A stretch of 64,000 nucleotides of DNA. It comes from Natronorubrum thiooxidans (GTDB taxonomy: Archaea > Halobacteriota > Halobacteria > Halobacteriales > Natrialbaceae). Below, piece after piece: positions 5,038-47,544 of this stretch. Numbering within the stretch: the stretch's first letter is position 1; each line of letters opens with the position of its first letter. A model generated the notes under the pieces. It was not told the DNA's origin. It ran no database searches and saw only the letters and a program-made list of their open reading frames with translations. The DNA lies in the NCBI RefSeq assembly GCF_900156475.1, contig NZ_FTNR01000001.1, positions 434,001 to 498,000 on the forward strand, read 5' to 3'. A program made the position numbers and the translations under genes.

Positions 5038-7473
5038 GTGACCGGCTCACAGTTGACGGACGCACTTCGAGAGACTCTTTCTCCCTTCGAAGCAGGAGGG
5101 GCACCAATGACGACAACTGAGGTAGCCGAACAACTCAATCTTGGCCGCCGAAGTACCTACGAGCGCCTCGAACGGCTCGTCGATCACGACCGGCTCGAAA
5201 CCAAGAAAGTTGGGGGAAACGGACGCGTGTGGTGGCAACCATCCACGAATGGACAAGCGTTTTCGAAGGAACGGGAAAGGGATGCGGTAGACAGCGACCT
5301 CGGCGAGGTCTTCGATCGAATCTCGGACAGCTTCTATGGCCTCGACGAAGAACTCCGTTTTCGCTATCTGAACGACACCGCAGCAGACCTTTTTGGACTG
5401 AATGAGGACGCAATTGGTTCGGACATTCGTAACGAGAATCTCACGGAGACGTACGAGAACGCACTGTATGAGGCTCTTGAAACACAAAAGGCCGTAGTCT
5501 TCGAAGACTACTATCCTCCGTGGGACAAGTGGTTTCTGAACGCCATCTATCCCTCTGAATCAGGCTTGTCGGTCTACTCCCGCGACATCACCGAACGGAA
5601 GCGACGTGAACAAGAACTGACTCGCTACGAAACGATCGTCGAAACGAATCCAATCGGCATCACGATCGTTGACAGTGACGGCGAAATGCAGTTCGCCAAC
5701 GACCGCGCTGAGGAGATCTACGGTCGGAGCAAAGACCAGATCAACGACCTCAGCTTTGACGATCCCGAGTGGACCGAAGTCGACGTTGACGGCGAACCAC
5801 TCCCGGATGACGAGAAGCCTTTCTCGCAAATTATGGAGTCCGGAGAACCCGTGTTCGATCATGTCAGTGGAATATCTAGTCCAGATGGAGAACGAGTCTG
5901 GATCTCCATCAATGGAGCGCCGGTCTACGACGACCGTGGAGAGATCGAGAGTGCTGTGTTCGCCATCGAAAACATCACCGAGCGCAAGGAGCGCGAACAG
6001 GCACTCAGGGAGAGCGAGGCGCGCTATCGGTCGCTGACGAATGACGTCCTCGACACATCAGACGTGGGAACGTTCATCCTGAATTCCGACTTCGAGGTCG
6101 TCTGGATCAACGAGGCCATCGAGGAGTTCTTCGGTCTCGATCGCGAGGCGATCGTTGGTCGCAACAAACGAACGCTCATCGAGGAAGAGATCGCGGGTAT
6201 CTTCGAGGAGCCCGAACGGTTCGCCAACCGCGTGACCGCCACCTACGAGGACAACACCTATACCGAGGAGTTCGAGAGCCACGTCCTCGAGGAGGGGAGC
6301 CTTGAGGAACGCTGGGTAAATCACTGGAGCCAGCCCATCGAGTCTGGGCTCTACGCCGGCGGCCGCATCGAACATTACACTGACATCACCGAACGAAAGG
6401 AGCGCGAACGTGCGCTCGAGGAGTCCGAACGGCGCTACCGGACACTCGTCAAAAACTTCCCAAACGGTGCGGTTGGCCTGTTCGACGATGACCTGCGGTA
6501 CACGGCCGTCGGTGGGGAGTTGCTGGACGCGACCGGTGTCTCTCCGGAGGATCGGATCGGAAACAGTGTCTACGACATCTATCCGGACAATATCGTCGAT
6601 GAGGTCGAACCGCACTTCGAGGCTGCGCTAGAGGGCGAGGCGAATTCATTCGAGGTCGAGTACAACGATCAAAATCTGTTCGCCTACACCTTGCCTCTCA
6701 GAAACGACGGCGGAGAGGTGTTTTCGGGGATGCTCGTCGTCCAAGACGTTACCGAACGACGGGAGTACCAGCGCAAACTCGAAGAGTCGAACGAACGGTT
6801 AGAGCAGTTCGCCTCCGCCGCCTCCCACGACCTCCAAGAGCCGTTGCGAATGGTTACGAGCTACCTCCAATTAATCGAGGATCGGTACGGCGATGCGCTC
6901 GATGAAGACGGTGAAGAATTCCTCGAGTTCGCCGTCGACGGCGCCGAGCGAATGCGCGAGATGATCGACGGACTGCTCGAGTACTCGCGCATCGAAACGC
7001 GTGGCGATCCATTCGAACCGGTCGACCTCGATGATGTCCTTGATGACGTTCGCGAAGATCTCCAAATGCGGATCGACGAGAGTAACGCTGGGATCACAAC
7101 CGACGATCTCCCGTGTGTAGATGGCGACGCCAGCCAGTTGCGCCAGGTCTTCCAGAACCTGCTGAGTAATGCGATTGAGTACAGCGGCGATGAGCCACCG
7201 CAGGTCGACATTTCCGCCACGCGTGATGACGACCGATGGATCATTTCAGTGCAGGATAACGGTATTGGGATCGATCCTGATGAACAGGAACATATCTTCG
7301 AGGTGTTCCAACGACTGCATACCTACGAGGAACACTCGGGGACGGGCATTGGCCTCGCGCTGTCCCGGCGGGTCGTCGAGCGCCACGGCGGCGAGATCTG
7401 GATCGACTCCGAACCCGGAGAGGGGTCGACGTTCTCGTTTACGCTTCCTGCAGTACAGAATCAGGATGGGTGA
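5038..7473 (+). CDS. HTH-PAS(x4) sensor histidine kinase
   Basis: An 811-residue cytoplasmic sensor kinase starting at GTG 5038. An N-terminal winged-helix segment (about residues 22-68, TTEVAEQLNLGRRSTYERL) is followed by four PAS domains at about 88-190, 197-320, 333-455 and 466-575, several ending in ITERKERE linkers. The HisKA dimerisation helix carries the phospho-acceptor His597 in ASHDLQEPLRM. The ATPase domain has an N-box (NLLSNAIEYS), G1 DNGIGID and G2 GTGIGLALSRR near 768. There are no membrane segments, so the signal should be intracellular (redox, light or a small ligand). No response regulator is adjacent, as is usual for haloarchaeal orphan kinases. The HTH at the start of a kinase is a less common addition. 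Confidence 0.92.
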   Translation: MTGSQLTDALRETLSPFEAGGAPMTTTEVAEQLNLGRRSTYERLERLVDHDRLETKKVGGNGRVWWQPSTNGQAFSKERERDAVDSDLGEVFDRISDSFYGLDEELRFRYLNDTAADLFGLNEDAIGSDIRNENLTETYENALYEALETQKAVVFEDYYPPWDKWFLNAIYPSESGLSVYSRDITERKRREQELTRYETIVETNPIGITIVDSDGEMQFANDRAEEIYGRSKDQINDLSFDDPEWTEVDVDGEPLPDDEKPFSQIMESGEPVFDHVSGISSPDGERVWISINGAPVYDDRGEIESAVFAIENITERKEREQALRESEARYRSLTNDVLDTSDVGTFILNSDFEVVWINEAIEEFFGLDREAIVGRNKRTLIEEEIAGIFEEPERFANRVTATYEDNTYTEEFESHVLEEGSLEERWVNHWSQPIESGLYAGGRIEHYTDITERKERERALEESERRYRTLVKNFPNGAVGLFDDDLRYTAVGGELLDATGVSPEDRIGNSVYDIYPDNIVDEVEPHFEAALEGEANSFEVEYNDQNLFAYTLPLRNDGGEVFSGMLVVQDVTERREYQRKLEESNERLEQFASAASHDLQEPLRMVTSYLQLIEDRYGDALDEDGEEFLEFAVDGAERMREMIDGLLEYSRIETRGDPFEPVDLDDVLDDVREDLQMRIDESNAGITTDDLPCVDGDASQLRQVFQNLLSNAIEYSGDEPPQVDISATRDDDRWIISVQDNGIGIDPDEQEHIFEVFQRLHTYEEHSGTGIGLALSRRVVERHGGEIWIDSEPGEGSTFSFTLPAVQNQDG

Positions 7474-7698
7474 CCCCGCTTCACGTATCGTTCCCTTTGT
7501 CCGAACTTGGATTGAACGATCACCACGCCGCTACGATTGGATACCAAGCGTGAACCATACGCGCTCTCTATTCAGCAGGCGGCTTTTGGCATAGTTCGGA
7601 TAGATCGATAGCTACTTCTATAACTGCTTGCCCTGTACTTACCGCGAGTTTCACCCCTCATTCGAGATAAAGGAATGGTATTATCGACTACTATTACG

Positions 7699-8919
7699 CT
7701 ACGCTGTCCCAACGAACTCGGCCATAGACGAGACGAGAATGCGGGTGACGTCGACGACCTCGTCGGTGTAGACGAACTCGCCAGTCCCGTGGATGTTCTC
7801 GCCGTCGGGGCCGATGATCACCGTCGGGAGGTCGGCCCGGTGGCCAAGGTAGTTGAAGTCCCCAATACTCGAGAAGTAGCCGATCGCGGGGCTCGTGCCG
7901 GTGACGGACTCGGTGCCGGCCTCGAGCGAGCGAACGAGCGGGTGGTCCTCGTCGGTGAGATACGGCCCATAGTAAACATCCGACGCGGGTGCGTCGCGGA
8001 AACCGATCTCAACCTCAGAGTCGAGTTCGAGGTCGTCGACGACGGCTCTCGCATCCTCGAGGACGTCCCCGGGTCCTTCGCCGAGGACGACGTGGCGGTC
8101 GACGAGCAGCCGACACTCATCGGGGACCGAGAGCGTCTCGCTGCCGCCCTCGATCAACAGCGGACAGACCGAGCCCGCGCCGAGTTTCGGGTGGGAGCCG
8201 ACGTCCATCTCCGACAGCGCGGTGGCCACCGTCCCGGCGTCGACGACGGCGTTCGTCCCCGTCTCTGGCTTCGAGCCGTGTGCAGCGCGGCCGTGGACGG
8301 TGATCTCGTAGAGAAATCGGCCGCGAGCACCGAGCAGAAGTGCAGGGTTCTCGAGGTCCGACTGGGCGAGGATGGGGCCGGGTTCGGTGACGATCGCGGC
8401 GTCGCAGTCGTCGGTGAGCCCGTCCCGAAGGAGTTGGTTCGTCCCGAGGCCGTAGGGGCCTTCCTCGTCGACGACCGCAGTGAAGAGCACGTCGCCGCGC
8501 AGATCGACGTCGGCCTCGGCGAGCGCCCGGAACGCGACCATCGCGGCCGCGAGCCCGCCTTTCATGTCACAGGCTCCCTGGCCGTAGCACTTCCCGTCCT
8601 CGAGTCGTCCCGAGAGCGGGTCTTCGTCCCAGCCGTCGACTAGCTGGACCGTGTCGACGTGGGCGTTCAACAAGAGCGTCGGAGCGTCGGGATCGCTCCC
8701 CTCGAGGCGGGCGATGACGTTATTTCCCTCGTAGCCAGTGAGCTCCGGCTCCGAAACTGGGTGGTACTCGGGCTCGAGGCCGTTGTCCGCGAGCCACTCG
8801 TAGACGAAGTCGACGATTTCGTCCTCCTCGAAGTAGGGGCTCTCGATTCGGACCAGCTCCTGGAGCAGGTCGATCGTCTCTGTCGGGTCGACCGCGTCCT
8901 CGATAGTGGTTGGTGTCAT
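7699..8919 (-). CDS. M20 family metallopeptidase / ArgE-DapE-type deacylase
   Basis: A 406-residue zinc amidohydrolase of the M20 family (carboxypeptidase G2, ArgE, DapE). Metal-binding motifs are NAHVDTV (His87, Asp89), GACDMKGG (Asp118) and the catalytic/ligand pair in VDEEGPYG (Glu152, Glu153). The central dimerisation domain shows GRFLYEITVHGRAAHGSKPE. It starts 14 bp after the permease stop and must belong to the same transcript. With a permease and a regulator upstream, it probably hydrolyses an imported N-acyl amino acid or small peptide. The exact substrate cannot be told from the sequence. Confidence 0.88.
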   Translation of the reverse strand: MTPTTIEDAVDPTETIDLLQELVRIESPYFEEDEIVDFVYEWLADNGLEPEYHPVSEPELTGYEGNNVIARLEGSDPDAPTLLLNAHVDTVQLVDGWDEDPLSGRLEDGKCYGQGACDMKGGLAAAMVAFRALAEADVDLRGDVLFTAVVDEEGPYGLGTNQLLRDGLTDDCDAAIVTEPGPILAQSDLENPALLLGARGRFLYEITVHGRAAHGSKPETGTNAVVDAGTVATALSEMDVGSHPKLGAGSVCPLLIEGGSETLSVPDECRLLVDRHVVLGEGPGDVLEDARAVVDDLELDSEVEIGFRDAPASDVYYGPYLTDEDHPLVRSLEAGTESVTGTSPAIGYFSSIGDFNYLGHRADLPTVIIGPDGENIHGTGEFVYTDEVVDVTRILVSSMAEFVGTA

Positions 8920-10452: not shown

Positions 10453-11175
10453 TCACTCTGGCCGATCGAGAAGCTTCGCTTCGGCCTTCCGGAGGTGTTC
10501 GAGAAACGTCGACTCGGCGATTTCGAGTTCCGCGGCGAGGTCGGCGGCCGAGACCTCCCGCGGCCAGCGGTAGTAGTGGCGGCTGCGGGCGAGTTCGAAC
10601 ACTTCCCGCTGGCGTTCCGAGAGGCGATCGGTCCGGAACATCCCGCTCACGACGTCGTTGCGAAGCGCCGTCATCAACTCCACCGTGATCGACGCTGACT
10701 GTTCGTCGCGGATCTCGTCCAGCTTTTTCCGGACGGTATCCCGATTCTCGTGGGTGACGACCGTCCAGTACTCGCGGCCGCCAGTGATGCGGACGGGTTC
10801 GTCGGGGATGAACCCGCGCGAGACGAGCGCGTCGTTGATACTGTTCGCGAGATCGTACTGGACGATGAGTCCGGTCGTCGCGTTCTCCGTCCGGGGTGTC
10901 GTCGCCGCTGTCGCTCGATGCTGGTCGATCGACCAAACCGAATCGACCAGCGACGACGCCTCGATCGCGTCGACGAGCGTCTCGAGGTCCGCCGTCGACC
11001 GCGCGTAGGCGGTAAACCGACCGGTCGCCATGCCGTCGATCCGGTGGACGCCGTGGCCGAGCAGTCCGCCGGCCGTGTTCGCGGTGACCTCGAGCGTCCA
11101 GCAGTCGGGATGCCAGATGTTGAGTTGTAACCGCGAGCCGACGTCGATCCGGTCGGTGGTGTTCGAGTTCGGCAA
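10453..11175 (-). CDS. Bat-type (HTH_10) transcriptional regulator
   Basis: A 240-residue haloarchaeal regulator. The N-terminal two-thirds is a sensing region typical of bacterio-opsin activator-like proteins, and the C-terminal 55 residues are the HTH_10 domain (LSERQREVFELARSRHYYRW then SAADLAAELEIAESTFLEHL). The only usable start is a TTG at 11175, since an in-frame stop lies eight codons upstream, so the N-terminus is uncertain. It is the first gene of a leftward regulator-permease-M20 array with 73 bp to the permease and probably controls that array. Confidence 0.85.
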   Translation of the reverse strand: MPNSNTTDRIDVGSRLQLNIWHPDCWTLEVTANTAGGLLGHGVHRIDGMATGRFTAYARSTADLETLVDAIEASSLVDSVWSIDQHRATAATTPRTENATTGLIVQYDLANSINDALVSRGFIPDEPVRITGGREYWTVVTHENRDTVRKKLDEIRDEQSASITVELMTALRNDVVSGMFRTDRLSERQREVFELARSRHYYRWPREVSAADLAAELEIAESTFLEHLRKAEAKLLDRPE

Positions 11176-11256
11176 GACGTTCCTGCTCTATGCAGAGCGG
11201 TCGAATAAACCTGTTCGTCGCCGGGAATCGTCCGTTCGGACGTGAAAGACCCGCAA

Positions 11257-12081
11257 TCAGAGATCGTACTGTTCGCCGTCGACTGCCAACGGCTCCGCGA
11301 ACGCCTCGTCGGCTGGGTAGTAGTGGGCGAGATGGACCAGCCGCGTCCGCTCGGCGTTCAGGTCGTCGGCCAACTCGAGGGCCCCCTCTCGCGTCATGTG
11401 TTTCGTCCCGAACGTTCGGGGGACTCCGGCCTCGTTCTCGTGGCGACCGCCCAGCGGATGGTACTCACAGAGGGCTGCGGGGACGATTGCGTCCGCGAGC
11501 AACAGATCGGGATCGGCGAGCACCCTCCGGGAGGGCTCAGGAATGTCGTAGCTCGTATCGCCGGATAGCGACAGTTTCGCGCCCGTTTCGGGGTCTTCGA
11601 TCGCAACGCCGTAACAGACCAGCGGTGGATGTTCGACCGGCACCAGCGTCACGTCGAAGCCACAGACTCGAACCGGCTCGAGCGGCGTCGTCGGATGGAC
11701 CTTGAGCATCTCAAGGTAGTGATAATCGTCGCGGACCGTCTCGGCGACGCTTTTGTCCGTCTTGGGATCGGTTTCGTCGGCTGCGTAGACGTCGAGTGCG
11801 TCCACGACACGAAAGACGTTGCCCAGCCCGTCGAGGTGGTCGAAGTGGATGTGCGTAATGACGGCAGCATCCGGCAGGGCCACGTCCTCGCGCAGGAACT
11901 GTGTGCGAAAGTCCGGGCTGAAATCGATCAGCAGCGACTCGCCGGTGCGTTCGTTCTCAACGTGGACCGAAAACCGGGTGCGTTCGATGTCGCGCTCGCG
12001 GGCCGTCTCGCAGGTGTCACAGTCACAGCCGACGGTCGGCGTGCCGGTCGTATCGCCCGTCCCGAGCAGCGTTACGCGCAC
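11257..12081 (-). CDS. PhnP-like metallo-beta-lactamase-fold phosphodiesterase
   Basis: A 274-residue MBL-fold hydrolase. The metal motif THIHFDHLDG (His77, His79, Asp81, His82) is intact, with later ligands in LSGDTSYD and the C-terminal HLAHYY. The N-terminal triad Cys19-x-Cys21-x2-Cys24 (GCDCDTCETA) matches the structural zinc site of PhnP, a phosphoribosyl cyclic phosphodiesterase. No other phn genes are nearby, so the substrate here may differ. Start is GTG 12081. The next gene upstream on this strand (DUF2237) is 130 bp away, so it likely has its own promoter. Confidence 0.82.
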   Translation of the reverse strand: MRVTLLGTGDTTGTPTVGCDCDTCETARERDIERTRFSVHVENERTGESLLIDFSPDFRTQFLREDVALPDAAVITHIHFDHLDGLGNVFRVVDALDVYAADETDPKTDKSVAETVRDDYHYLEMLKVHPTTPLEPVRVCGFDVTLVPVEHPPLVCYGVAIEDPETGAKLSLSGDTSYDIPEPSRRVLADPDLLLADAIVPAALCEYHPLGGRHENEAGVPRTFGTKHMTREGALELADDLNAERTRLVHLAHYYPADEAFAEPLAVDGEQYDL

Positions 12082-38711: not shown

Positions 38712-38828
38712 CTACCGGAGATCTTGCAGTTGTCGCTCGAGGCGGTGTAACTGGCGCTGCATGTAGAGGATGTACGCGAACAGCGCGACGAATATCGCGC
38801 CGTATCCGGCGAGGAGGAACGGTTCCAT
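38712..38828 (-). CDS. ccmD: Heme exporter protein CcmD
   Basis: A 38-residue protein starting at ATG 38828, two bases after the ccmC stop. It has one membrane helix (YGAIFVALFAYILYMQ) followed by a charged amphipathic tail (RQLHRLERQLQDLR), exactly the CcmD plan. CcmD holds the heme-CcmE complex together with CcmC and helps release holo-CcmE. Position directly after ccmC is the classical order. Confidence 0.85.
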   Translation of the reverse strand: MEPFLLAGYGAIFVALFAYILYMQRQLHRLERQLQDLR

Positions 38829-38830
38829 GG

Positions 38831-39565
38831 TTACGCCACCTCCTCTTTTTTGAGGACGACTTTGTCCTCGAGTTCGTGCAGGCGGATACGAATCGCCATC
38901 AGGTAGATGTAGAGCAGTCCCAGTGCGAGCAACGAGATGCCGAGCGTCAGTGGGTCGATGTTTGCACTCACGTCTGGATTTGCCACGGTCGGTTCGTGAA
39001 ACGTCGGTGTCCAGAGACGGCCAGCAGTGTAGGTGATCGGAACGGTGATGAACGCGACTGTTCCGTAGACTGCCGCAAATCGTTCGTCGGCACCCCGTTC
39101 TGTCGAGGCGTACACGACGAGATACCCCGCGTAAATGAACCAGACCATGAGAAACGTGACGAGTCGAACGTCACTCCACTCCCACCACGAGTTCCAGACG
39201 ACGCGTCCCCACAGGCTCCCCGTAACGAGCGTCAGCGTTGCGAACAGGAATCCGATCTCGCCGCCGCTGTGTGCGAGCCGGTTCCAGAATCGGCCCTCGT
39301 ATTTGAGATAGAGCACACTCCCGACGAACGTCGCAGAGAGGGCGCCGGCAGTCAGAAACGCGAGCGGAATGTGCCAGTAGGCGATGAGGTTGATACCGTG
39401 ATCGATGCCGTACATCGTTCGGGAGGCGAATCCGAATATGAGAGTCAACGAGGTCAAGCCAAGAACGAACGCGCCCCAGCGAACAAACCGACTCCACATG
39501 ATTCGGTGGAACAGCGCGATGAGTGTGCCAAGGCGTCTCGAGAGTGTACGCATACGAGCATGCAT
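38831..39565 (-). CDS. ccmC: Cytochrome c maturation heme-lyase subunit CcmC
   Basis: A 244-residue membrane protein with six helices. It passes heme to CcmE in System I cytochrome c maturation. The two external heme-ligand histidines are present as His65 (IAYWHIPLAF) and His190 (TPTFHEP), flanking the tryptophan-rich WWD-type loop SLWGRVVWNSWWEWSDVRL (117-135). That loop has one extra residue compared with the usual WGTWWVWDARL. Start ATG 39565 or 39553. It follows ccdA by 31 bp and is followed by ccmD with a 2-bp gap. Confidence 0.9.
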   Translation of the reverse strand: MHARMRTLSRRLGTLIALFHRIMWSRFVRWGAFVLGLTSLTLIFGFASRTMYGIDHGINLIAYWHIPLAFLTAGALSATFVGSVLYLKYEGRFWNRLAHSGGEIGFLFATLTLVTGSLWGRVVWNSWWEWSDVRLVTFLMVWFIYAGYLVVYASTERGADERFAAVYGTVAFITVPITYTAGRLWTPTFHEPTVANPDVSANIDPLTLGISLLALGLLYIYLMAIRIRLHELEDKVVLKKEEVA

Positions 39566-39596
39566 TCAACGAGTATGACTTAATTTTTTCCAACAA

Positions 39597-40283
39597 TTAC
39601 TGGACGAGTGCTGCCAGCAACGCCTTGTCGACTTCGAACAACAGTCCGATACCTGTCACGACGAGCGCGTACCCGCTCAGCCGTCGTACCAGCGCCGGTC
39701 GATCGAGCGACCGCACGCGGTCGGTCAGCACACTGCCGGCCCGTTTCCCGCCGTACGCGACGACCAACAGTGGTCCGGAGAAGCCGACCCCGTACGTAAA
39801 AAGCAGCGTTGCACTCTGTGCCGTCTCTCCGGACGCACCGACGAACGCGAGCACGCTCCCGAGTACGGGCCCGACACACGGCAACCAGATGACGCCGAGA
39901 AACAGTCCGAGCACGAAGCCACCGACGAGTGGGTGGTGGGACGTTTCGATGGCGGTCGTAAACCGCGTCACCGGACCGGTAACTCTCGATGCGTACGTCG
40001 TGTACGCGGTGTGAAGATCGTCATCGGCCATCACCGCACCGAAGACGATGATCATTGCCACGAACGGCAGCCGAAACGAATCGGGCGTCAACGAGCCGAC
40101 CAGCGCCGTGGCGATTCCGAGCACGGTAAACGACGCGATACTCCCGGCGACGATCGCGAGCGGCCGAAACCGGTGTCCGGTGCTTCCCGCGAGTAACGGG
40201 GGGATCATCGGGAGACAACACGGTGTGAGTGCAGTGAGTACCCCTGCGACGAAAACTGCAACCAGTCCCGGCGTCTCGAGCAT
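39597..40283 (-). CDS. ccdA: Cytochrome c biogenesis protein CcdA
   Basis: A 228-residue, six-helix thiol reductant transporter. The paired redox cysteines are Cys22/Cys23 in TPCCLPMIPP and Cys136 in IWLPCVGPVLGS, in the two symmetry-related helices of the DsbD-beta/CcdA fold. It moves electrons from cytoplasmic thioredoxin outward to keep apocytochrome heme-binding cysteines reduced. Position between the TsdA-like cytochrome and ccmC supports that role. Confidence 0.88.
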   Translation of the reverse strand: MLETPGLVAVFVAGVLTALTPCCLPMIPPLLAGSTGHRFRPLAIVAGSIASFTVLGIATALVGSLTPDSFRLPFVAMIIVFGAVMADDDLHTAYTTYASRVTGPVTRFTTAIETSHHPLVGGFVLGLFLGVIWLPCVGPVLGSVLAFVGASGETAQSATLLFTYGVGFSGPLLVVAYGGKRAGSVLTDRVRSLDRPALVRRLSGYALVVTGIGLLFEVDKALLAALVQ

Positions 40284-40342
40284 TGATGACTCTATATCCC
40301 GAGATGGAAATAAAGAACGTGGTGAATCTTCGACGGCTTCGT

Positions 40343-41524
40343 TCAGTCGCCCGTCTCGTCGACCGACTCCTCCCGGAGCGGCTGGTCGTACCGATCGACG
40401 TCGTCCGGGATGTCGTCCTCGCTAAGCGACTCGGTACCCGTCGGGATGCCAGCTAACTCGAGTTTCTTCTGCATCGGGTTCATCTCGTAGCCGAGATCCC
40501 CCTGCGTCCGTTCGTAGTAGACTCCCTCCTCCGGTGGACCCGTCGTCGGGAAGTCGTCTTCTTTGCCAACGAACTCGGGACGGTCGTGGCCGTTCATGAA
40601 TCCAGCGATGTCCTGTACGTCACGCCAGTCAGTCAGCGTGTGTGGTGCACCGTATGGCATGGCTTCACGGATGAACGCCGACGACGTGTAGACGCGGGAC
40701 ATTCCGGCACCGTCGTTGAACGAGTCAGGGCCCCACAGTGCTGTGGCAGTGCCCTCGATTCCCTGTCCGTCGTCACCGTGACAGGACGCACAGTTCTCAA
40801 GGTAGAGTTCTGCACCCCGGACAGGGTTGATCTCTTCGACCGGAACGCGTTCGTCACCCTCTGCTTTGTTCAGGTGTGACCAGTACGGCTGGGCCTTCGT
40901 CGGCACGCCCTCGCTCAGCCACTGCATGTACGCCTCCATGGCTTGCATCTCTCTGCTGTCGTACTCGGGTGTGCCCTCCTCGGAGTCCTGGGAGTTCATA
41001 CTCCGGTCGAAACAGCCCATCAGCCGCTGGCGACTGTCACGCATCCGGTCGCGCCGGTTGGTCCACTCGGGTAGGTCTGCATGGGTCCCGACGAGCGGAA
41101 TCATGGTGATATCCTGGCCGACCATTCCCTGCGTCATACCGAGATCGCTGCCGCCGTGACAGCTCGCACACGACAGTTCGTTACCGACGTGCTCTGGAAG
41201 TTCTTCGGAGGTGTTCTCCATGATCTCGCGCCCGTAGATGACGAGTTCCCGCTCGTTTTCGTTCTCGGGAAGCGTCGACTCGTTCATCTCCTTGGGGGAG
41301 AACTGGATCTCCTCGCCGGCCGTTTCGTTCCGGTACTCGAGGTCGTCTTTCGACTCACCCTCCCGAAGATCTTCGTCCAACACGTTGCGGTCCGGCCATT
41401 CTGCCGGCGCCTCTATCGGATCACTCGTTTCGCCGTTGCTATCATCAGGTGCTGTCGGAGCGGAACAACCGGCCAGAACGGCCAGTACGAGCACTCCTGA
41501 CAAGATGAGTAGTTTTCGCTTCAT
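40343..41524 (-). CDS. tsdA: TsdA-like di-heme c-type cytochrome (thiosulfate dehydrogenase family), lipoprotein
   Basis: A 393-residue exported cytochrome from ATG 41524, with a lipoprotein signal (VLAGC, Cys20). Heme 1 is C119-A-S-C122-H123; Cys171 in MGCFDRSMN, 48 residues later, matches the unusual Cys axial ligand of TsdA. Heme 2 is C245-A-S-C248-H249, with Met289 (EAMPYG) as a candidate ligand. LWGPDSFNDGAGM (263-275) is a TsdA hallmark. TsdA couples thiosulfate and tetrathionate in either direction; direction here is unknown. It leads a leftward operon with ccdA, ccmC and ccmD, and diverges from the trx-ccmF operon. Confidence 0.8.
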   Translation of the reverse strand: MKRKLLILSGVLVLAVLAGCSAPTAPDDSNGETSDPIEAPAEWPDRNVLDEDLREGESKDDLEYRNETAGEEIQFSPKEMNESTLPENENERELVIYGREIMENTSEELPEHVGNELSCASCHGGSDLGMTQGMVGQDITMIPLVGTHADLPEWTNRRDRMRDSRQRLMGCFDRSMNSQDSEEGTPEYDSREMQAMEAYMQWLSEGVPTKAQPYWSHLNKAEGDERVPVEEINPVRGAELYLENCASCHGDDGQGIEGTATALWGPDSFNDGAGMSRVYTSSAFIREAMPYGAPHTLTDWRDVQDIAGFMNGHDRPEFVGKEDDFPTTGPPEEGVYYERTQGDLGYEMNPMQKKLELAGIPTGTESLSEDDIPDDVDRYDQPLREESVDETGD

Positions 41525-41696
41525 GGCCCAGAAGATCCTCTTTCCGGACACCTTCTGCATGATGCACTCACTGGCATGAGTCATAATGATGGAAACTAAT
41601 GATTAAAGATTTATGGTCGATGAAATCCCATGGGAAAATTAGTATCTATCGTATGGTCACATCAATCGATCCACTAGTAATGAGCCCGCCGAATCC

Positions 41697-42170
41697 GTGA
41701 CGCCACGAAAAATCTTCACGATTGTTCTTGTTATCATGGCCCTCGGAATCGGATACTACTCGATGAACACGGCATCCGTACTGAGTGATGAGTCACACAC
41801 GTATCACGGAGACACTGCATGGCAAACAGACGTAGACGAAGCGCTGGAAACCGCTGCCGCGGAAGACAAACCGGTGCTCGTCTACTTCTGGACGACGTGG
41901 TGTACCTACTGTGAAGATTACAACGAGAACGCCTACGTCGAGCCGGATGTTCACGACCGGCTCGATAACTTCGTTCTCCTCGCGGTGAATCTCGACGATA
42001 GCAGTTCGGAAGCGAAAGACCTCCAGCGACGGTACAATGCGAACTACCCGCCCCAGCATGTCGCGATCACACCTGACGGAGAACTGTTGGTGGACATCAA
42101 TGGATACGCCGAGACGGACTCGTTTATCGCGTATCTCGACGAAGCGCAATCGGAGTGGAAGAGTCGATGA
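41697..42170 (+). CDS. Membrane-anchored thioredoxin-like protein (DsbD-gamma/CcmG-type role)
   Basis: A 157-residue protein starting at GTG 41697, with one N-terminal membrane anchor (about residues 6-24) and an outward thioredoxin domain. The redox motif is Cys69-T-Y-Cys72 (FWTTWCTYCEDY) and the cis-Pro region is NYPPQH (117-121). The sequence around KPVLVYFWTTWC and LQRRYNANYPP is nearer to the DsbD C-terminal domain than to CcmG. It probably takes electrons from CcdA and reduces apocytochrome. Its stop overlaps the ccmF start (ATGA). Confidence 0.85.
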   Translation: MTPRKIFTIVLVIMALGIGYYSMNTASVLSDESHTYHGDTAWQTDVDEALETAAAEDKPVLVYFWTTWCTYCEDYNENAYVEPDVHDRLDNFVLLAVNLDDSSSEAKDLQRRYNANYPPQHVAITPDGELLVDINGYAETDSFIAYLDEAQSEWKSR

Positions 42171-44578
42171 TTGGATCTGCGCTCATCGCCGGCGCGATGG
42201 TTACGGGACTCGTGGCAACGGTGCTCCTGTTTCGTGGCTATCTCCGCCGTAACAACGACTACGTCACCGTCATTGCACCGTTGATCGGTGCGACTGCCGG
42301 ACTGTTGACACTCGCACTCGGGTATCTCACGTACCAGTTTGTCGTCACCGATTACGCGAATGCGTACGTTTGGAACAACACCGCGAATTACATTCCACTG
42401 CTCTATCGCATCACCGGCGTCTACGCAGGTAACGAAGGCTCCGTTCTCCTGTGGGCAGCACTGGCTGCCGTCGTCGCCTTCTGGGCGGCTGTCCGCCGTG
42501 GAGTAGCGTCGCCCGATGCGAAACTCGTGCAGGGACTCACGGTCGGGATTGTCACGTACTTCGCGGCCATGCTATTCTTCGATAGTCCCTTCACCTCGAT
42601 CACCGACGAGTTCCCCGAGATGGGCGAGGGGGTCACGCCGCTCGATGGGACGGGACTTAATCCGCTTCTGGTCGATCCGTATATGGCGATCCATCCACCG
42701 GTGATGTTCATCGCCTACGCGCTTCTGACGATGCCGTTTGCCATCGCCGTTGCCCATTTTATTTCGACGATCCGTGGTAACGGAGGACTGTTCAGCGACT
42801 GGATCGGAAGCATCACGCGCTGGCTCCGCATCTCGTGGCTCTTTCTCACCGCTGCAATCGTCCTCGGGTCGCTGTGGTCGTATCGAGTCCTCGGCTGGGG
42901 TGGGATCTGGGCGTGGGATCCCGTCGAGACTGCCGTGTTGATCCCGTGGATCTTCCTCACTGCGACGTTACACGCCGTAATGAACTACCGGTCGCGATCG
43001 ACGTACGCAACGCTTGCACCGGCGATGACGGCGACGACACTTGCGCTCGTCATCTACGCGACCGCGATCGTCAGAAGTGGCGTCTTCCGAAGCGTTCACT
43101 CGTTTGCCGACGACGGAATTGGGTTCGCGCTGCTCGTGTTGCTCGCAGTGACGACGATACTCGGCGTCTGTCTCCCGCTTGGCTACTGGCTTCTGAGGGA
43201 GCCAGCGGAGCCAGCCGACGACTCACAGCCATGGCTCACTCGAGCGAATGTGTTACACCTTGCCATCCTCGGTATCGGACTGCTCGGTTTCGTCTCCGTC
43301 TGGGGGCTTTCGTTCCCCGTCCTCAACAGCTACATCACGGGGATGGAAGTCGAAGTGACGGGCGACTACTATAACCTCTGGAGCTATCCGATCGTGCTCG
43401 CGATGCTGTTGCTCCTCGGGTTCTACATGGATTACGACGTAGAGGGTCGCCGCCGTGCACTGCTCTCGCTTGGTGTCTTCACGACGGCGACCGTTCTGGC
43501 TGCGCTGATCGCGCCGACCGACTCGTGGTTGCTTGCGAGTGACACGAACGATGCGCTATTCTACCAACTCATCGGCAGCGTGAGTGCCCTCTCGCTGCTC
43601 CCGCCAGCGGCGTACGTCTGTCTCACGGTCATCAATCGCGCACTCGAGTACGTTCCCGGTTCGCCGAGTCGAAACTATCAGTTCAAACAGGTGGGCGTCG
43701 CGATGGTTCACATCGGCTTCGTGATCCTCGTGGTCGCCGTCGCGTTCTCCTATCTGTTTACCGCCCAGTCGTCGGTGATCATCGCCGATGCCGAACAGGA
43801 GGCAGCACTGGACGACTCCGGTGTCCACGACGTCCCCGACTCCGCTTACGCCGTCGAAGTGACTGACTATCGTGAGTATCAGCGTCCGGAGGATCCGGAC
43901 ATTCGAAACGTCGCCTTCTCGGTCGACGAGGTGACTGCTCGAGGTGATTCGATTCACGAGACGGTACAGCCGGTGTACGGAACGGTAACGGAGGTTAATC
44001 AGGGGCCGGAGGCGACGATCGTCCAACTCGACGACTCGCAAATCTGGCTCGGCGTCGTCGGCGACGGGCAGGCAGACGTTGACGTTTCCGAGGGCGACCA
44101 GGTCGTCGGCGTCGGCTACGTGATGTGGGATTACCTTCCGGAGCTATCGCAAACCGATGCGGTCGTCGTCACCGACCCGGCGGACATCGGGTCGGTGACG
44201 AATCCGCCTGCTGCACTCGACCAGACGCGCGTCCAGGGCAGTGCCGTTGGACTCACCGTCTACGACGGTGGCGAACGACTCGCCAGCGGCGAAGCCGGCC
44301 AGGAGCGCTACCTCCGGCAGGGCGGGATGGAAGTCAGAAACGTCTTTGTCGATCGTGGACTGGCCCACGACACGTACGTCATCGCAGCGGTCGACGACGG
44401 AACCGCCTCACTGACGATCCGACAGATTCCGCTGATGAATCTCATGCGAGTTAGTACCGGCGTGTTGCTCGCAGGAATGTTGGTTATCATCCTGTTCGAC
44501 CCGGCCTACGGGCTCGTTCGCACGTGGTCACGCCGGACCGAACAGCCGAACACCACTGAAACACCATCCGACGACTAA
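42167..44578 (+). CDS. ccmF: Cytochrome c heme lyase CcmF
   Basis: An 803-residue polytopic protein, the heme lyase of System I that ligates heme to apocytochrome. The WWD motif GWGGIWAWDPVE lies near residue 245, and conserved histidines occur in AIHPPVMFIAYA and RSVHSFADDG. About 14 helices are followed by a large external domain (about residues 560-760) and a last helix. Start ATG 42167 gives a 4-bp overlap with the thioredoxin gene. Length is in the upper range for CcmF. Confidence 0.93.
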   Translation: MIGSALIAGAMVTGLVATVLLFRGYLRRNNDYVTVIAPLIGATAGLLTLALGYLTYQFVVTDYANAYVWNNTANYIPLLYRITGVYAGNEGSVLLWAALAAVVAFWAAVRRGVASPDAKLVQGLTVGIVTYFAAMLFFDSPFTSITDEFPEMGEGVTPLDGTGLNPLLVDPYMAIHPPVMFIAYALLTMPFAIAVAHFISTIRGNGGLFSDWIGSITRWLRISWLFLTAAIVLGSLWSYRVLGWGGIWAWDPVETAVLIPWIFLTATLHAVMNYRSRSTYATLAPAMTATTLALVIYATAIVRSGVFRSVHSFADDGIGFALLVLLAVTTILGVCLPLGYWLLREPAEPADDSQPWLTRANVLHLAILGIGLLGFVSVWGLSFPVLNSYITGMEVEVTGDYYNLWSYPIVLAMLLLLGFYMDYDVEGRRRALLSLGVFTTATVLAALIAPTDSWLLASDTNDALFYQLIGSVSALSLLPPAAYVCLTVINRALEYVPGSPSRNYQFKQVGVAMVHIGFVILVVAVAFSYLFTAQSSVIIADAEQEAALDDSGVHDVPDSAYAVEVTDYREYQRPEDPDIRNVAFSVDEVTARGDSIHETVQPVYGTVTEVNQGPEATIVQLDDSQIWLGVVGDGQADVDVSEGDQVVGVGYVMWDYLPELSQTDAVVVTDPADIGSVTNPPAALDQTRVQGSAVGLTVYDGGERLASGEAGQERYLRQGGMEVRNVFVDRGLAHDTYVIAAVDDGTASLTIRQIPLMNLMRVSTGVLLAGMLVIILFDPAYGLVRTWSRRTEQPNTTETPSDD

Positions 44579-44581
44579 TTC

Positions 44582-45772
44582 ATGTCTCACAAACACACAC
44601 TTCTCACAGTACTCGCATCGCTTGCACTCGTCGTACTCGTCTCGATCGCGCTGGTTCCCGGCGCTGTCGCCGAGGAGTCGTATTCCGGCACCGTGACCGT
44701 CGCAGACGGCTCCGCGGAGGGAGATAACATCACCATTACGCCGCTCGATGCGGGGTACAACGCAGTCGATGATCCAACCGAGACGATCATCGAGAACGGC
44801 TCGTTCAGCTACGAACGGGCTGACAACGCGTCAGTGTACTTCATCAAACTCGAGCACGCCGGCGCGTCTCACTACGAACTCGTCACCGACGGCCAGGAGC
44901 CGACGATCACCCTAAACGAAACGGCAACCGGAACGCTCGTCGACGAGGATGGCGATCCTGTCTCGAACGCGACCATCGACGTCATGAGCGAGCACGGTCC
45001 GCCAGTCGATCAGCTGGCGGTCGATACCGGCTCGTTTACCCTCGAGCCACTCCAGCCCGATCAAACGTATCCGATTCGTATCGAGGCGAACGGCGCTGTC
45101 TACGAGCGGATGCTCTCGACCGGTGATGGATCCGTCGACGCCACGTACGAGCTTCCGGAGCCGACTGCCGACCAAGACGTGTTACACCTCGGCGGTGGAC
45201 AACCCGTAAACCATCTGCTGCGGGTCGGACCCACTCAGGACGGGTCGAGACTGTTCGTCGTCGAGACCGTTTCGTTCGAGAACAGTGCCGCTCGCCCCTT
45301 CGCCGGTCCAGTCGAGTTTGCGGTGCCGTCGGATGCCGAAGTCGTCACGGGAATGGTCCAAGAGGAGCGTACTGAGGTCACCGTCGAGAACGGAACGGCA
45401 ACGGTCGACGCCTCGATCGAGGGCGGCGAGACGGCCGACGTATCGGTATTCTATCAGCTTGAAGACCGAGAACTCGAGAAACCGGTCGGATACGACGTCG
45501 AGCAGTTCGCCATCTCGTTTGTCGAGTACGACCTGAGTCAGGTCGAGTTCTCGGACAACCTCGTCGAAGCGGACGCGCCGATGCCGATGGTGATGAACAC
45601 CAACGCCCTCGAAGCGGACGAACGGATCGCCGTGAGCATTGACGAGCGCGGGGCGGTCGCCGGCGACGAACTGGATAACGACTCGCAGGGTGATGACCTT
45701 CCTGTCGGTCTTCTAAGCGCTGCGTTCGTCGGAATCGTGGTCGTCGGGCTACTTGCGTACCGACGGCTGTAG
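44582..45772 (+). CDS. Exported membrane-anchored protein of unknown function in the ccm operon
   Basis: A 396-residue protein 3 bp downstream of ccmF. It has a Sec signal peptide (about 6-30), an extracellular beta-rich region including a carboxypeptidase-regulatory-like fold (TGTLVDEDGDPVSNATIDVM near 120) and a single C-terminal helix (GLLSAAFVGIVVVGLLAY). It contains no cysteine, so it is neither CcmH nor a redox protein. The operon position suggests a role in cytochrome maturation or substrate presentation, but this is inference. Its stop abuts the convergent ccmB stop. Confidence 0.78.
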   Translation: MSHKHTLLTVLASLALVVLVSIALVPGAVAEESYSGTVTVADGSAEGDNITITPLDAGYNAVDDPTETIIENGSFSYERADNASVYFIKLEHAGASHYELVTDGQEPTITLNETATGTLVDEDGDPVSNATIDVMSEHGPPVDQLAVDTGSFTLEPLQPDQTYPIRIEANGAVYERMLSTGDGSVDATYELPEPTADQDVLHLGGGQPVNHLLRVGPTQDGSRLFVVETVSFENSAARPFAGPVEFAVPSDAEVVTGMVQEERTEVTVENGTATVDASIEGGETADVSVFYQLEDRELEKPVGYDVEQFAISFVEYDLSQVEFSDNLVEADAPMPMVMNTNALEADERIAVSIDERGAVAGDELDNDSQGDDLPVGLLSAAFVGIVVVGLLAYRRL

Positions 45773-46459
45773 CTACCGTTCGACCACGTATTCGAACGTC
45801 ACTAATCCAGTGAGAAACAGCAGTCCATCGTACACGAGCAAGAGCTGAAGCCACTGCCACGTCACGTACCCCTCCGTGAGCACGCGCGTGAGTTCGACAC
45901 CGGCGAGCAACACGGGGACGACGAGCGGCACGAGCAAGAGCGGCAACAGGAGTTCGCGAAGCCGGGCCCGGGCGGTCATCGTCGCGATGAGGACGCCGGT
46001 CGACGTGAATCCGAACGCGGCCAGCACGAAGACCACCAGCAGTATCGGAACGACGTCAAGCGGGACGGTAAACTCGAGGAAGATGACGGTACAGACGAAC
46101 GTAATGACCGCAACGGCCGTGGTAAAGACGGTGTTGCTCAGCACTTTTCCGACGTAGATCGCCGATCGGTCGACGGGCAACAGGAGAAGGCCGTCGAGTC
46201 CCGCGTCGGCCGTCTCTGCCGTTGCACTCTGGCTGACGCCGAAGGTCCCCGCGAAGACGAACGCGATCCAGAGTGCGCCGCTTCCGACGACGCCAACGTC
46301 CGTAAACGATCTGGCGAAACTGAACGCGAAGATGACGACGACCAGCAACGCGAACACGACCGCCGTGTTGAGTACCTGCTTCGAGCGCAACTCGAGGAGC
46401 AGGTCCTTGCGCACGACCTCGAGCACGACGCGGTTGTACTTGCGAAGGCCGTCGATCAT
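45773..46459 (-). CDS. ccmB: Heme exporter membrane subunit CcmB
   Basis: A 228-residue, six-helix permease of the CcmAB ABC complex, which uses ATP to release holo-CcmE from CcmC-CcmD. The N-terminal cytoplasmic VVRKDLLLELRSKQ stretch and the later DGLLLLPVDRSAIYVGK region are typical. Start overlaps the ccmA stop by 4 bp (ATGA). The gene end touches the stop of the convergent exported-protein gene with no spacer at all. Confidence 0.87.
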   Translation of the reverse strand: MIDGLRKYNRVVLEVVRKDLLLELRSKQVLNTAVVFALLVVVIFAFSFARSFTDVGVVGSGALWIAFVFAGTFGVSQSATAETADAGLDGLLLLPVDRSAIYVGKVLSNTVFTTAVAVITFVCTVIFLEFTVPLDVVPILLVVFVLAAFGFTSTGVLIATMTARARLRELLLPLLLVPLVVPVLLAGVELTRVLTEGYVTWQWLQLLLVYDGLLFLTGLVTFEYVVER

Positions 46460-47160
46460 CGTTGATCAGCCGGGTCGGTTGCTCGCTGGTAGACGGTCTC
46501 GAGTGCGTCCGTTGCCGAATCTTCGATTTGAACGTCACGCGAAACGGTGCCGTCAACGAGCACGAGTGCGCGGTCACAGTCGGTAGCGCCCCGTGCTAAG
46601 TCGTGGGTCGCGAGCACGACCGTTCGGTCGTCGAACTGGTCGAGAATCCGTTGCAGATCCGCAGCCGAGCGTTGATCCAGCCCGGCATAGGGTTCGTCGA
46701 GCAATAGCACTGTCGGATCGTGAAGCACTGCGCGAGCGATAGCGAGTCGCTTCTTCATCCCGTGGGAGAACGTTTCCACGCGCGTCGACGCCTGCGTCCG
46801 GAGATTGACCTGCCCGAGGACCTCCTCGACGCGGTCGGTACTGACGCCTCGGAGTCGAGCGTGAAGACGGAGGTTTTCACGGGCGGTGAGGGTGCCGTAC
46901 AGCATCGGTCGGTGGCCCATGACACCGAGGTCGCGTCGGACGCGCGTCGCATCGGGTGTGACGTCGCGTCCACCGATCTGAATGGAGCCGTCACTGGGGA
47001 ACGAAAGCGTGGCCAGCATCTGCATCAGGGTCGTTTTGCCGGCGCCGTTCGGACCGAACAGTCCGACGTGTTCGCCTGATTCAACGGTGAAACTGACGTC
47101 GCGGACGGCGACCGTCGAACCGAGTCGCTTCGTGACACCCTCGGCGGTAATCGACGCCAT
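46456..47160 (-). CDS. ccmA: Heme exporter ATPase CcmA
   Basis: A 234-residue ABC ATPase. Walker A GPNGAGKT is at 36-43, the signature FSHGMKKRLAIA at 131-142 and Walker B VLLLDEP at 151-157, with the H-loop in VLATHDLARGA. The SHGM variant of the signature is common in CcmA. It follows ccmE by 3 bp and overlaps ccmB, so ccmE-ccmA-ccmB is one leftward operon. Confidence 0.9.
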   Translation of the reverse strand: MASITAEGVTKRLGSTVAVRDVSFTVESGEHVGLFGPNGAGKTTLMQMLATLSFPSDGSIQIGGRDVTPDATRVRRDLGVMGHRPMLYGTLTARENLRLHARLRGVSTDRVEEVLGQVNLRTQASTRVETFSHGMKKRLAIARAVLHDPTVLLLDEPYAGLDQRSAADLQRILDQFDDRTVVLATHDLARGATDCDRALVLVDGTVSRDVQIEDSATDALETVYQRATDPADQR

Positions 47161-47163
47161 CGG

Positions 47164-47544
47164 TTAGGTGTGTTCTTCCGGCGGGTCACCGTCTTCGTCG
47201 TTGTGGGCCCTGACCGAGAGTTCGGTCGCCTGTAGTGTTCCATCCTCGACAGCGCCTTTTGCAACGACGATTCGGTTTTCGGCCATCGTCTCGGGCATGG
47301 TTCCCTCGTAGACCACATCGACCGACGTGTTGTTATCAGATATGGCGAACGTGATTTTCTCACCCGTCTGTTCGATGTCAGTCGCTTGGCCCTCAAGATT
47401 TACCCACTCACCCTCATAGTCGCCGTCGTCGACAGCCGTTGGTGTAACGAACTCTGCAGACGCGTTCATTACCGTCACGCCCAGGGCACCAAGGAGCAAT
47501 AGAATACCGACGCCCACAAAAAGGAGTTTGTTCCTTCGTTTCAC
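47164..47544 (-). CDS. ccmE: Heme chaperone CcmE with divergent C-terminal motif
   Basis: A 126-residue protein from GTG 47544: a short basic N-terminus, one membrane helix (LLFVGVGILLLLGALGVTVM) and an external OB-fold (GEWVNLEGQATDIEQTGEKI, then SVDVVYEGTMPETM). In bacterial CcmE the heme-linking His lies in an H-D-E-x-Y motif before Pro-Pro-Glu. Here the corresponding end reads RAHNDEDGDPPEE: the His is displaced by one position and the Tyr is missing. CXXXY-type archaeal variants also do not fit. Heme binding is probably retained through this His but needs testing. Confidence 0.82.
   Translation of the reverse strand: MKRRNKLLFVGVGILLLLGALGVTVMNASAEFVTPTAVDDGDYEGEWVNLEGQATDIEQTGEKITFAISDNNTSVDVVYEGTMPETMAENRIVVAKGAVEDGTLQATELSVRAHNDEDGDPPEEHT

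Follow-up and report, generated by a model that had tools for sequence, protein, structure and literature searches.

A haloarchaeal System I locus for cytochrome c maturation that appears dedicated to a TsdA-type di-heme cytochrome and carries an unusual CcmE

We analyzed 64,000 nucleotides of the haloarchaeon Natronorubrum thiooxidans (contig NZ_FTNR01000001.1, positions 434,001 to 498,000; hereafter the window), in which ten genes at 38712-47544 specify the System I machinery for cytochrome c maturation (Ccm) together with a TsdA-type cytochrome. Our combined findings suggest, with a probability of about 0.78, that this locus is a client-dedicated module whose single product would be a di-heme TsdA-type thiosulfate dehydrogenase/tetrathionate reductase at the outer face of the membrane. 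This reading is built on observed gene content, co-occurrence, co-inheritance with the client, active-site residues and plasmid location. The TsdA-ccm pairing, which was the headline of the first-pass annotation of this DNA, is not new, since it was published in 2015: the part of Kletzin et al. (2015; PMC4429474) available to us describes five haloarchaea in which a di-heme cytochrome resembling TsdA (TDH cluster 28) is grouped with ccm genes as in an operon, and likewise a MauG-type cluster 29 with ccm genes. What goes beyond that part is the CcmE motif, CcmD, an exported partner protein, a strict partition of clients, their co-inheritance with the Ccm genes, and plasmid copies; the CcmE exception may already be mentioned by Allen et al. 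(2006).

We surveyed 391 haloarchaeal genomes, one per species, with family models whose cut-offs could conceal diverged members. ccmE was present in 40 genomes, in 20 of 86 genera, and CcmH in none of the 391. TsdA (PF21342) was found in 26 genomes and a MauG-type peroxidase (PF03150 above cut-off) in 14, and all of these fell within the 40 ccmE genomes (26/26 and 14/14, respectively). Only one of the 40 (G037) carries both cytochromes, and only one (G346) carries neither, having multiheme cytochromes. Within the N. thiooxidans genome, TsdA is the sole match to PF00034, PF13442 and PF21342 and no MauG (PF03150) was found, in a four-model search that unusual cytochrome families could escape. 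Thus, ccm genes are scarce among haloarchaea, and TsdA was never found without them. TsdA is the apparent client, as the first-pass annotation had proposed; the opposite picture, of ccm genes widespread in haloarchaea with many clients, is rejected on the same counts.

Synteny was read from the regions around ccmE in all 40 genomes. The CcmF tree splits TsdA-type from MauG-type sequences with a support of 100/100, and host families f1, f3 and f4 are found on both sides of this split. The trees of ccmC, ccdA, trx, ccmE and ccmB, obtained by short searches with the long-branched G346 left out, each have 1 client-label change as opposed to 9-10 family-label changes. The tested Ccm genes therefore form two lineages that track the client, TsdA or MauG, and not the host family. 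G037 holds a MauG-type ccm locus and, 164 kilobases apart, a TsdA-type set of ccdA-tsdA-trx-ccmF-exported protein (L060 and L076), which has its own second CcmF and no ccmABCDE. Since there is one ccmE in this genome, the MauG-type CcmE must feed both lyases, which makes G037 a natural experiment on whether a CcmE is able to supply a lyase from the opposite lineage.

All ten genes were located where the first-pass annotation had placed them (Table 1), with their families given by curated models, and form three units. Two of these, tsdA-ccdA-ccmC-ccmD and ccmE-ccmA-ccmB, lie on the minus strand, and the third, trx-ccmF-exported protein, lies on the plus strand. Their grouping is not due to chance, because the same genes co-locate in most of the 27 other haloarchaeal TsdA loci. 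Each Ccm member is backed by a family model. The claim that motifs are visible in all members does not hold for CcmE, in which both HxxxY and CxxxY are absent. CcmC matches TIGR01191 at 1.7e-24, yet under the model cut-off. The 112-base gap between tsdA and trx contains a conserved block, GGAAACTAATGATTAAAGATTTATGG, that is probably a two-way promoter, and trx and ccmF overlap by 16 bases. The thioredoxin, which is not above the CcmG/DsbE model cut-off, keeps its WCTYC motif at every locus except G346. In CcmF the WWD segment, Trp and His180, His273, His315 and His519 are conserved (41 sequences), the spacing of the four heme-ligand His residues presumably being that of Escherichia coli.

Table 1 Features of the TsdA-ccm locus in the window.
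Feature	Positions	Strand	Basis
ccmD, 38 residues, single N-terminal hydrophobic helix and charged tail	38712..38828	-	TIGR04391 CcmD_alt_fam 40.3 bits, cut-off 24
ccmC, 244 residues, heme-handling membrane protein, WWD-type segment WNSWWEWSD	38831..39565	-	PF01578 3.8e-21
ccdA, DsbD transmembrane domain, proposed electron supply to exterior thioredoxin	39597..40283	-	PF02683 5.9e-16
tsdA-type di-heme cytochrome (SCASCH, NCASCH; Cys ligand in GCFDRSMN)	40343..41584	-	PF00034, PF21342 SoxA-TsdA
Divergent tsdA/trx intergenic region with conserved block GGAAACTAATGATTAAAGATTTATGG	41585..41696		Sequence and alignment of four loci
trx, exported membrane-anchored thioredoxin-like protein (WTTWCTYC)	41697..42170	+	PF13899 8.1e-14
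ccmF, 807 residues, heme lyase, WWD (WGGIWAWDPVE)	42155..44578	+	TIGR00353 1.2e-61, under model cut-off
Exported immunoglobulin (Ig)-like beta-sandwich protein, C-terminal membrane anchor	44582..45772	+	TsdA loci only; predicted structure
ccmB	45773..46459	-	PF03379 6e-24
ccmA, ABC ATPase	46456..47160	-	TIGR01189 132.0 bits, cut-off 131.6
ccmE, heme chaperone, GTG start	47164..47544	-	PF03100 6.4e-12, 46 bits, cut-off 24.6
CcmE Arg112-Ala113-His114, haloarchaeal replacement of HxxxY/CxxxY heme site	47203..47211	-	Alignment

In the mechanism that we propose, CcmA, CcmB, CcmC and CcmD would carry heme over the membrane and load it onto CcmE, where it would most likely be bound by an invariant His. 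CcdA would pass electrons to the exported thioredoxin, which would keep both CxxCH motifs of apo-TsdA reduced, and CcmF would attach heme to these motifs without CcmH. Mature TsdA could then convert thiosulfate into tetrathionate, or run this reaction backwards, at a Cys-ligated heme 1 and exchange electrons via a His/Met heme 2, probably with halocyanin. The exported beta-sandwich protein would be a TsdA-specific partner in assembly or anchoring.

The cytochrome aligns with TsdA of Allochromatium vinosum (4v2k) over 233 residues (2.6e-36), and the true start of its gene is likely at 41524, giving the lipobox VLAGC. Residues R82, R92, C96, S100, R197 and M209 (A. vinosum mature numbering) are invariant in the 28 haloarchaeal homologs. 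In TsdA, Arg82, Arg92 and Ser100 contact thiosulfate, Arg197 is nearby and C96 is a heme ligand (PMC4423706, PMC5146829), so that a thiosulfate/tetrathionate activity is what the residues themselves point to. Because Met209 is kept and Lys208 is replaced (by Ala in 25 and Ser in 3 homologs), heme 2 is predicted to be His/Met. SoxA was considered and rejected, as the SoxA equivalog model TIGR04484 gave 37.7 bits where its cut-off is 110, and as the cytochrome has the Ser that is found in TsdA and not in SoxA (PMC4423706). A C-terminal tail of ~65 residues (window 40343-40550) with an invariant GY..NPM..K is conserved among haloarchaeal TsdA proteins and lies beyond the part aligned to A. vinosum TsdA.

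Just past the ccmC-ccmD end of their plasmid-borne modules, Halobacterium noricense and Halorussus halophilus have a halocyanin gene, and halocyanin-like genes are present at 8 of the 28 TsdA loci and at 4 MauG loci. Beyond the halocyanin gene, the H. halophilus plasmid has TusA, DsrE, metallo-hydrolase, YeeE/YedE and TauE genes. In vivo, the haloarchaeal cytochrome may serve as a tetrathionate reductase in anaerobic respiration rather than as a thiosulfate dehydrogenase, a possibility that we do not favor but take seriously, given that it lacks the Lys208 of the thiosulfate-oxidizing A. vinosum enzyme and that its heme 2 should be His/Met like that of the tetrathionate-reducing enzyme of Campylobacter jejuni (PMC5146829). 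However, the direction of TsdA is not deducible from the heme 2 ligand alone (PMC5146829). Moreover, the H. halophilus copy adjoins the sulfur-oxidation-type genes listed above. Most haloarchaea are aerobic heterotrophs, which also weighs against a respiratory reductase.

The exported protein was found at 28 of 28 TsdA loci and at 0 of 15 other ccm loci. Its AlphaFold2 (AF2) model (predicted local distance difference test score, pLDDT, of 84.8) is an all-beta chain of sandwich domains ending in one membrane helix. The protein matched no family above threshold, a carboxypeptidase-regulatory domain being the only sub-threshold match, and a fold search against solved structures returned only generic beta domains, of Ig-like, pilin and aminopeptidase type, at low template modeling (TM) scores and no specific relative. 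With no family above cut-off and no Cys in the window copy, it is rejected as a CcmH homolog. It could still replace CcmH/CcmI functionally, as the part of the lyase that presents the apocytochrome, and its gene does lie directly 3' of ccmF within the trx-ccmF unit in a class that is devoid of CcmH throughout. We regard this role as tentative at best, since the MauG loci, whose CcmF likewise lacks CcmH, have no such protein, the absence of Cys in the window copy argues against it as well, and Methanosarcina acetivorans manages without such a protein (PMC9084895); anchoring or protecting TsdA would be equally possible functions.

CcmE departs from known systems. Its AF2 model has an oligonucleotide/oligosaccharide-binding (OB) fold and matches CcmE structures 8ce8, 1sr3 and 1j6q, E. 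coli CcmE included. In 42 of 42 haloarchaeal copies the last beta strand ends in (R/K)(A/S)H, so that Ala or Ser occupies the canonical heme-binding position, the next residue is an invariant His and the Tyr is missing; the Cys of CxxxY was found in 0 of 42. By contrast, all 50 sampled CcmEs from other archaea of the phylum have Cys at the gaplessly aligned Ala/Ser position, mostly followed by PSKY, with 47 being CxxxY and the remaining three CPSRL, CPSKF and CPSKR. A profile alignment to E. coli CcmE pairs the haloarchaeal His with E. coli His130 through a one-residue gap; in either alignment the His is available and the Tyr is missing. Four non-haloarchaeal CcmEs (L115, L116, L117 and L127) have Cys-His-x-x-Tyr, for example CHTEY, a form that may be transitional from CxxxY to the AH of haloarchaea. 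Archaeal CcmE has been stated to be universally CxxxY and CcmD to be absent from archaea (PMC9084895), and all archaeal CcmEs have been stated to carry Cys (PMC3601427). The generalizations that CcmE is always CxxxY and CcmD never present fail in haloarchaea, where CcmD was found beside ccmC in nearly all ccm loci examined; NCBI annotation already labels a "CcmD family protein" in H. noricense.

On balance, these comparisons incline us slightly towards a third class of CcmE, with a covalent heme site shifted to the His one residue downstream, no Tyr and plausibly a Cys-His ancestor, in Ccm machines inherited with one client, TsdA or MauG, and not with the host. Alternatively, haloarchaeal CcmE may hold heme non-covalently, having lost its covalent capacity with the Cys and Tyr, so that RAH would be only a surface or axial-ligand site. 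The canonical residue being Ala or Ser in every copy, the loss of the Tyr, and a G346 CcmE that stops two residues past the His are in line with this. Nonetheless, we consider it unlikely: the adjacent His is invariant across deeply diverged copies, the G346 outlier included, no other residue able to bind heme is invariant in the C-terminal part of CcmE, bacterial CcmE bonds heme through His, and the four Cys-His proteins have these residues at the same two positions.

Several points weigh against a module dedicated to TsdA. Besides the reach of the own-genome search given above, the probabilities of the observed subsets if genomes were independent (~1e-30 for TsdA and ~1e-15 for MauG) are a guide only, because the genomes are related and the counts phylogenetically non-independent. 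There is no strict biochemical separation of the client lineages, since the TsdA-type CcmF of G037 has only the CcmE of the MauG type at its disposal. No halocyanin gene adjoins the locus in the window, and no other sulfur-metabolism gene was recognized among the window proteins tested. Finally, each biochemical step of the module is inferred from its genes. The broadest alternative, a general cytochrome c maturation system with TsdA as one of several clients, fits the usual generality of System I, the single CcmABCDE set of G037 that must serve both TsdA and MauG, and the two multiheme proteins adjoining ccmE in G346, but is improbable given an N. thiooxidans genome without a further match to PF00034, PF13442, PF03150 or PF21342 and the joint presence of TsdA and MauG in just 1 of 40 ccm genomes.

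The MauG-type loci share a PF00174 molybdopterin oxidoreductase (14 loci), which suggests another module that is specific to one client and has a partner of its own. This protein is membrane-anchored, of the sulfite-oxidase family, and is encoded near ccmE or ccmD (L070 7991-9637 and 13 other loci lacking TsdA). At the TsdA loci, clustering of flanking open reading frames for conserved neighbors yielded mostly antisense frames of the same genes. G346 (L075, G346:C1:2688700-2708600) encodes multiheme c-type cytochromes with 8 and 4 CxxCH motifs at 6590-8413 and 10922-11830 (PF13447, PF14522), in the vicinity of a divergent ccmE and a ccmC-ccmD of its own; Kletzin et al. stated that haloarchaea have no multiheme cytochromes (PMC4429474).

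The module is plasmid-borne in H. noricense and H. halophilus. The H. noricense plasmid NZ_CP089469.1 (368639 bases) carries the whole TsdA-ccm module twice (L038 and L039), ~166 kilobases apart, with transposase genes near one copy. The first-pass annotation had suggested a portable thiosulfate/tetrathionate module, without noticing that the exported protein goes with TsdA alone or that a parallel MauG version exists. Portability is plausible because the module sits on plasmids in these two species, and the thiosulfate/tetrathionate part derives from the residues of the cytochrome. The strict pattern of one machine and one client, together with the plasmid copies, offers a compact natural setup for the study of System I, in a class that includes genetically workable species, and haloarchaeal CcmE offers a testable case of how heme is held and released without the usual covalent residue or Tyr.

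How does this locus compare with known systems? With the TsdA enzymes of A. vinosum (4v2k) and C. jejuni the cytochrome shares two CxxCH motifs, the Cys ligand, the substrate-contacting Arg and Ser residues and the heme 2 Met, whereas it lacks the Lys208 of the A. vinosum enzyme, carries the haloarchaeal C-terminal tail and has maturation genes adjacent to it. As in NrfEFG, a lyase is tied to one client cytochrome, but here the motif is the standard CxxCH and a whole Ccm set is present, with no additional lyase devoted to an unusual motif; G037 is excepted from this contrast, since its TsdA is accompanied by a second CcmF. With E. coli System I (CcmABCDEFGH) the haloarchaeal locus has in common CcmA-F, the CcmE fold (8ce8, 1sr3) and the availability of His rather than Cys. 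It differs in having no CcmH, a CcmE that lacks the Tyr and has its His displaced by one position, a thioredoxin that is not CcmG/DsbE above cut-off, and three transcription units around the client. System I*, the variant of archaea and Desulfovibrio that was first described by Allen et al. in 2006 (archaeal Ccm, PMC3601427; M. acetivorans, PMC9084895), shares CcmABCEF, the lack of CcmH and a patchy presence, but the haloarchaeal CcmE ends in (R/K)(A/S)H and not in CxxxY, CcmD is present, CcdA and a thioredoxin are encoded in the locus, and CcmF is a single piece in contrast to the split CcmF of M. acetivorans. Since the locus departs from classic System I in CcmE and CcmH and from System I* in CcmE, we place it as a variant of System I.

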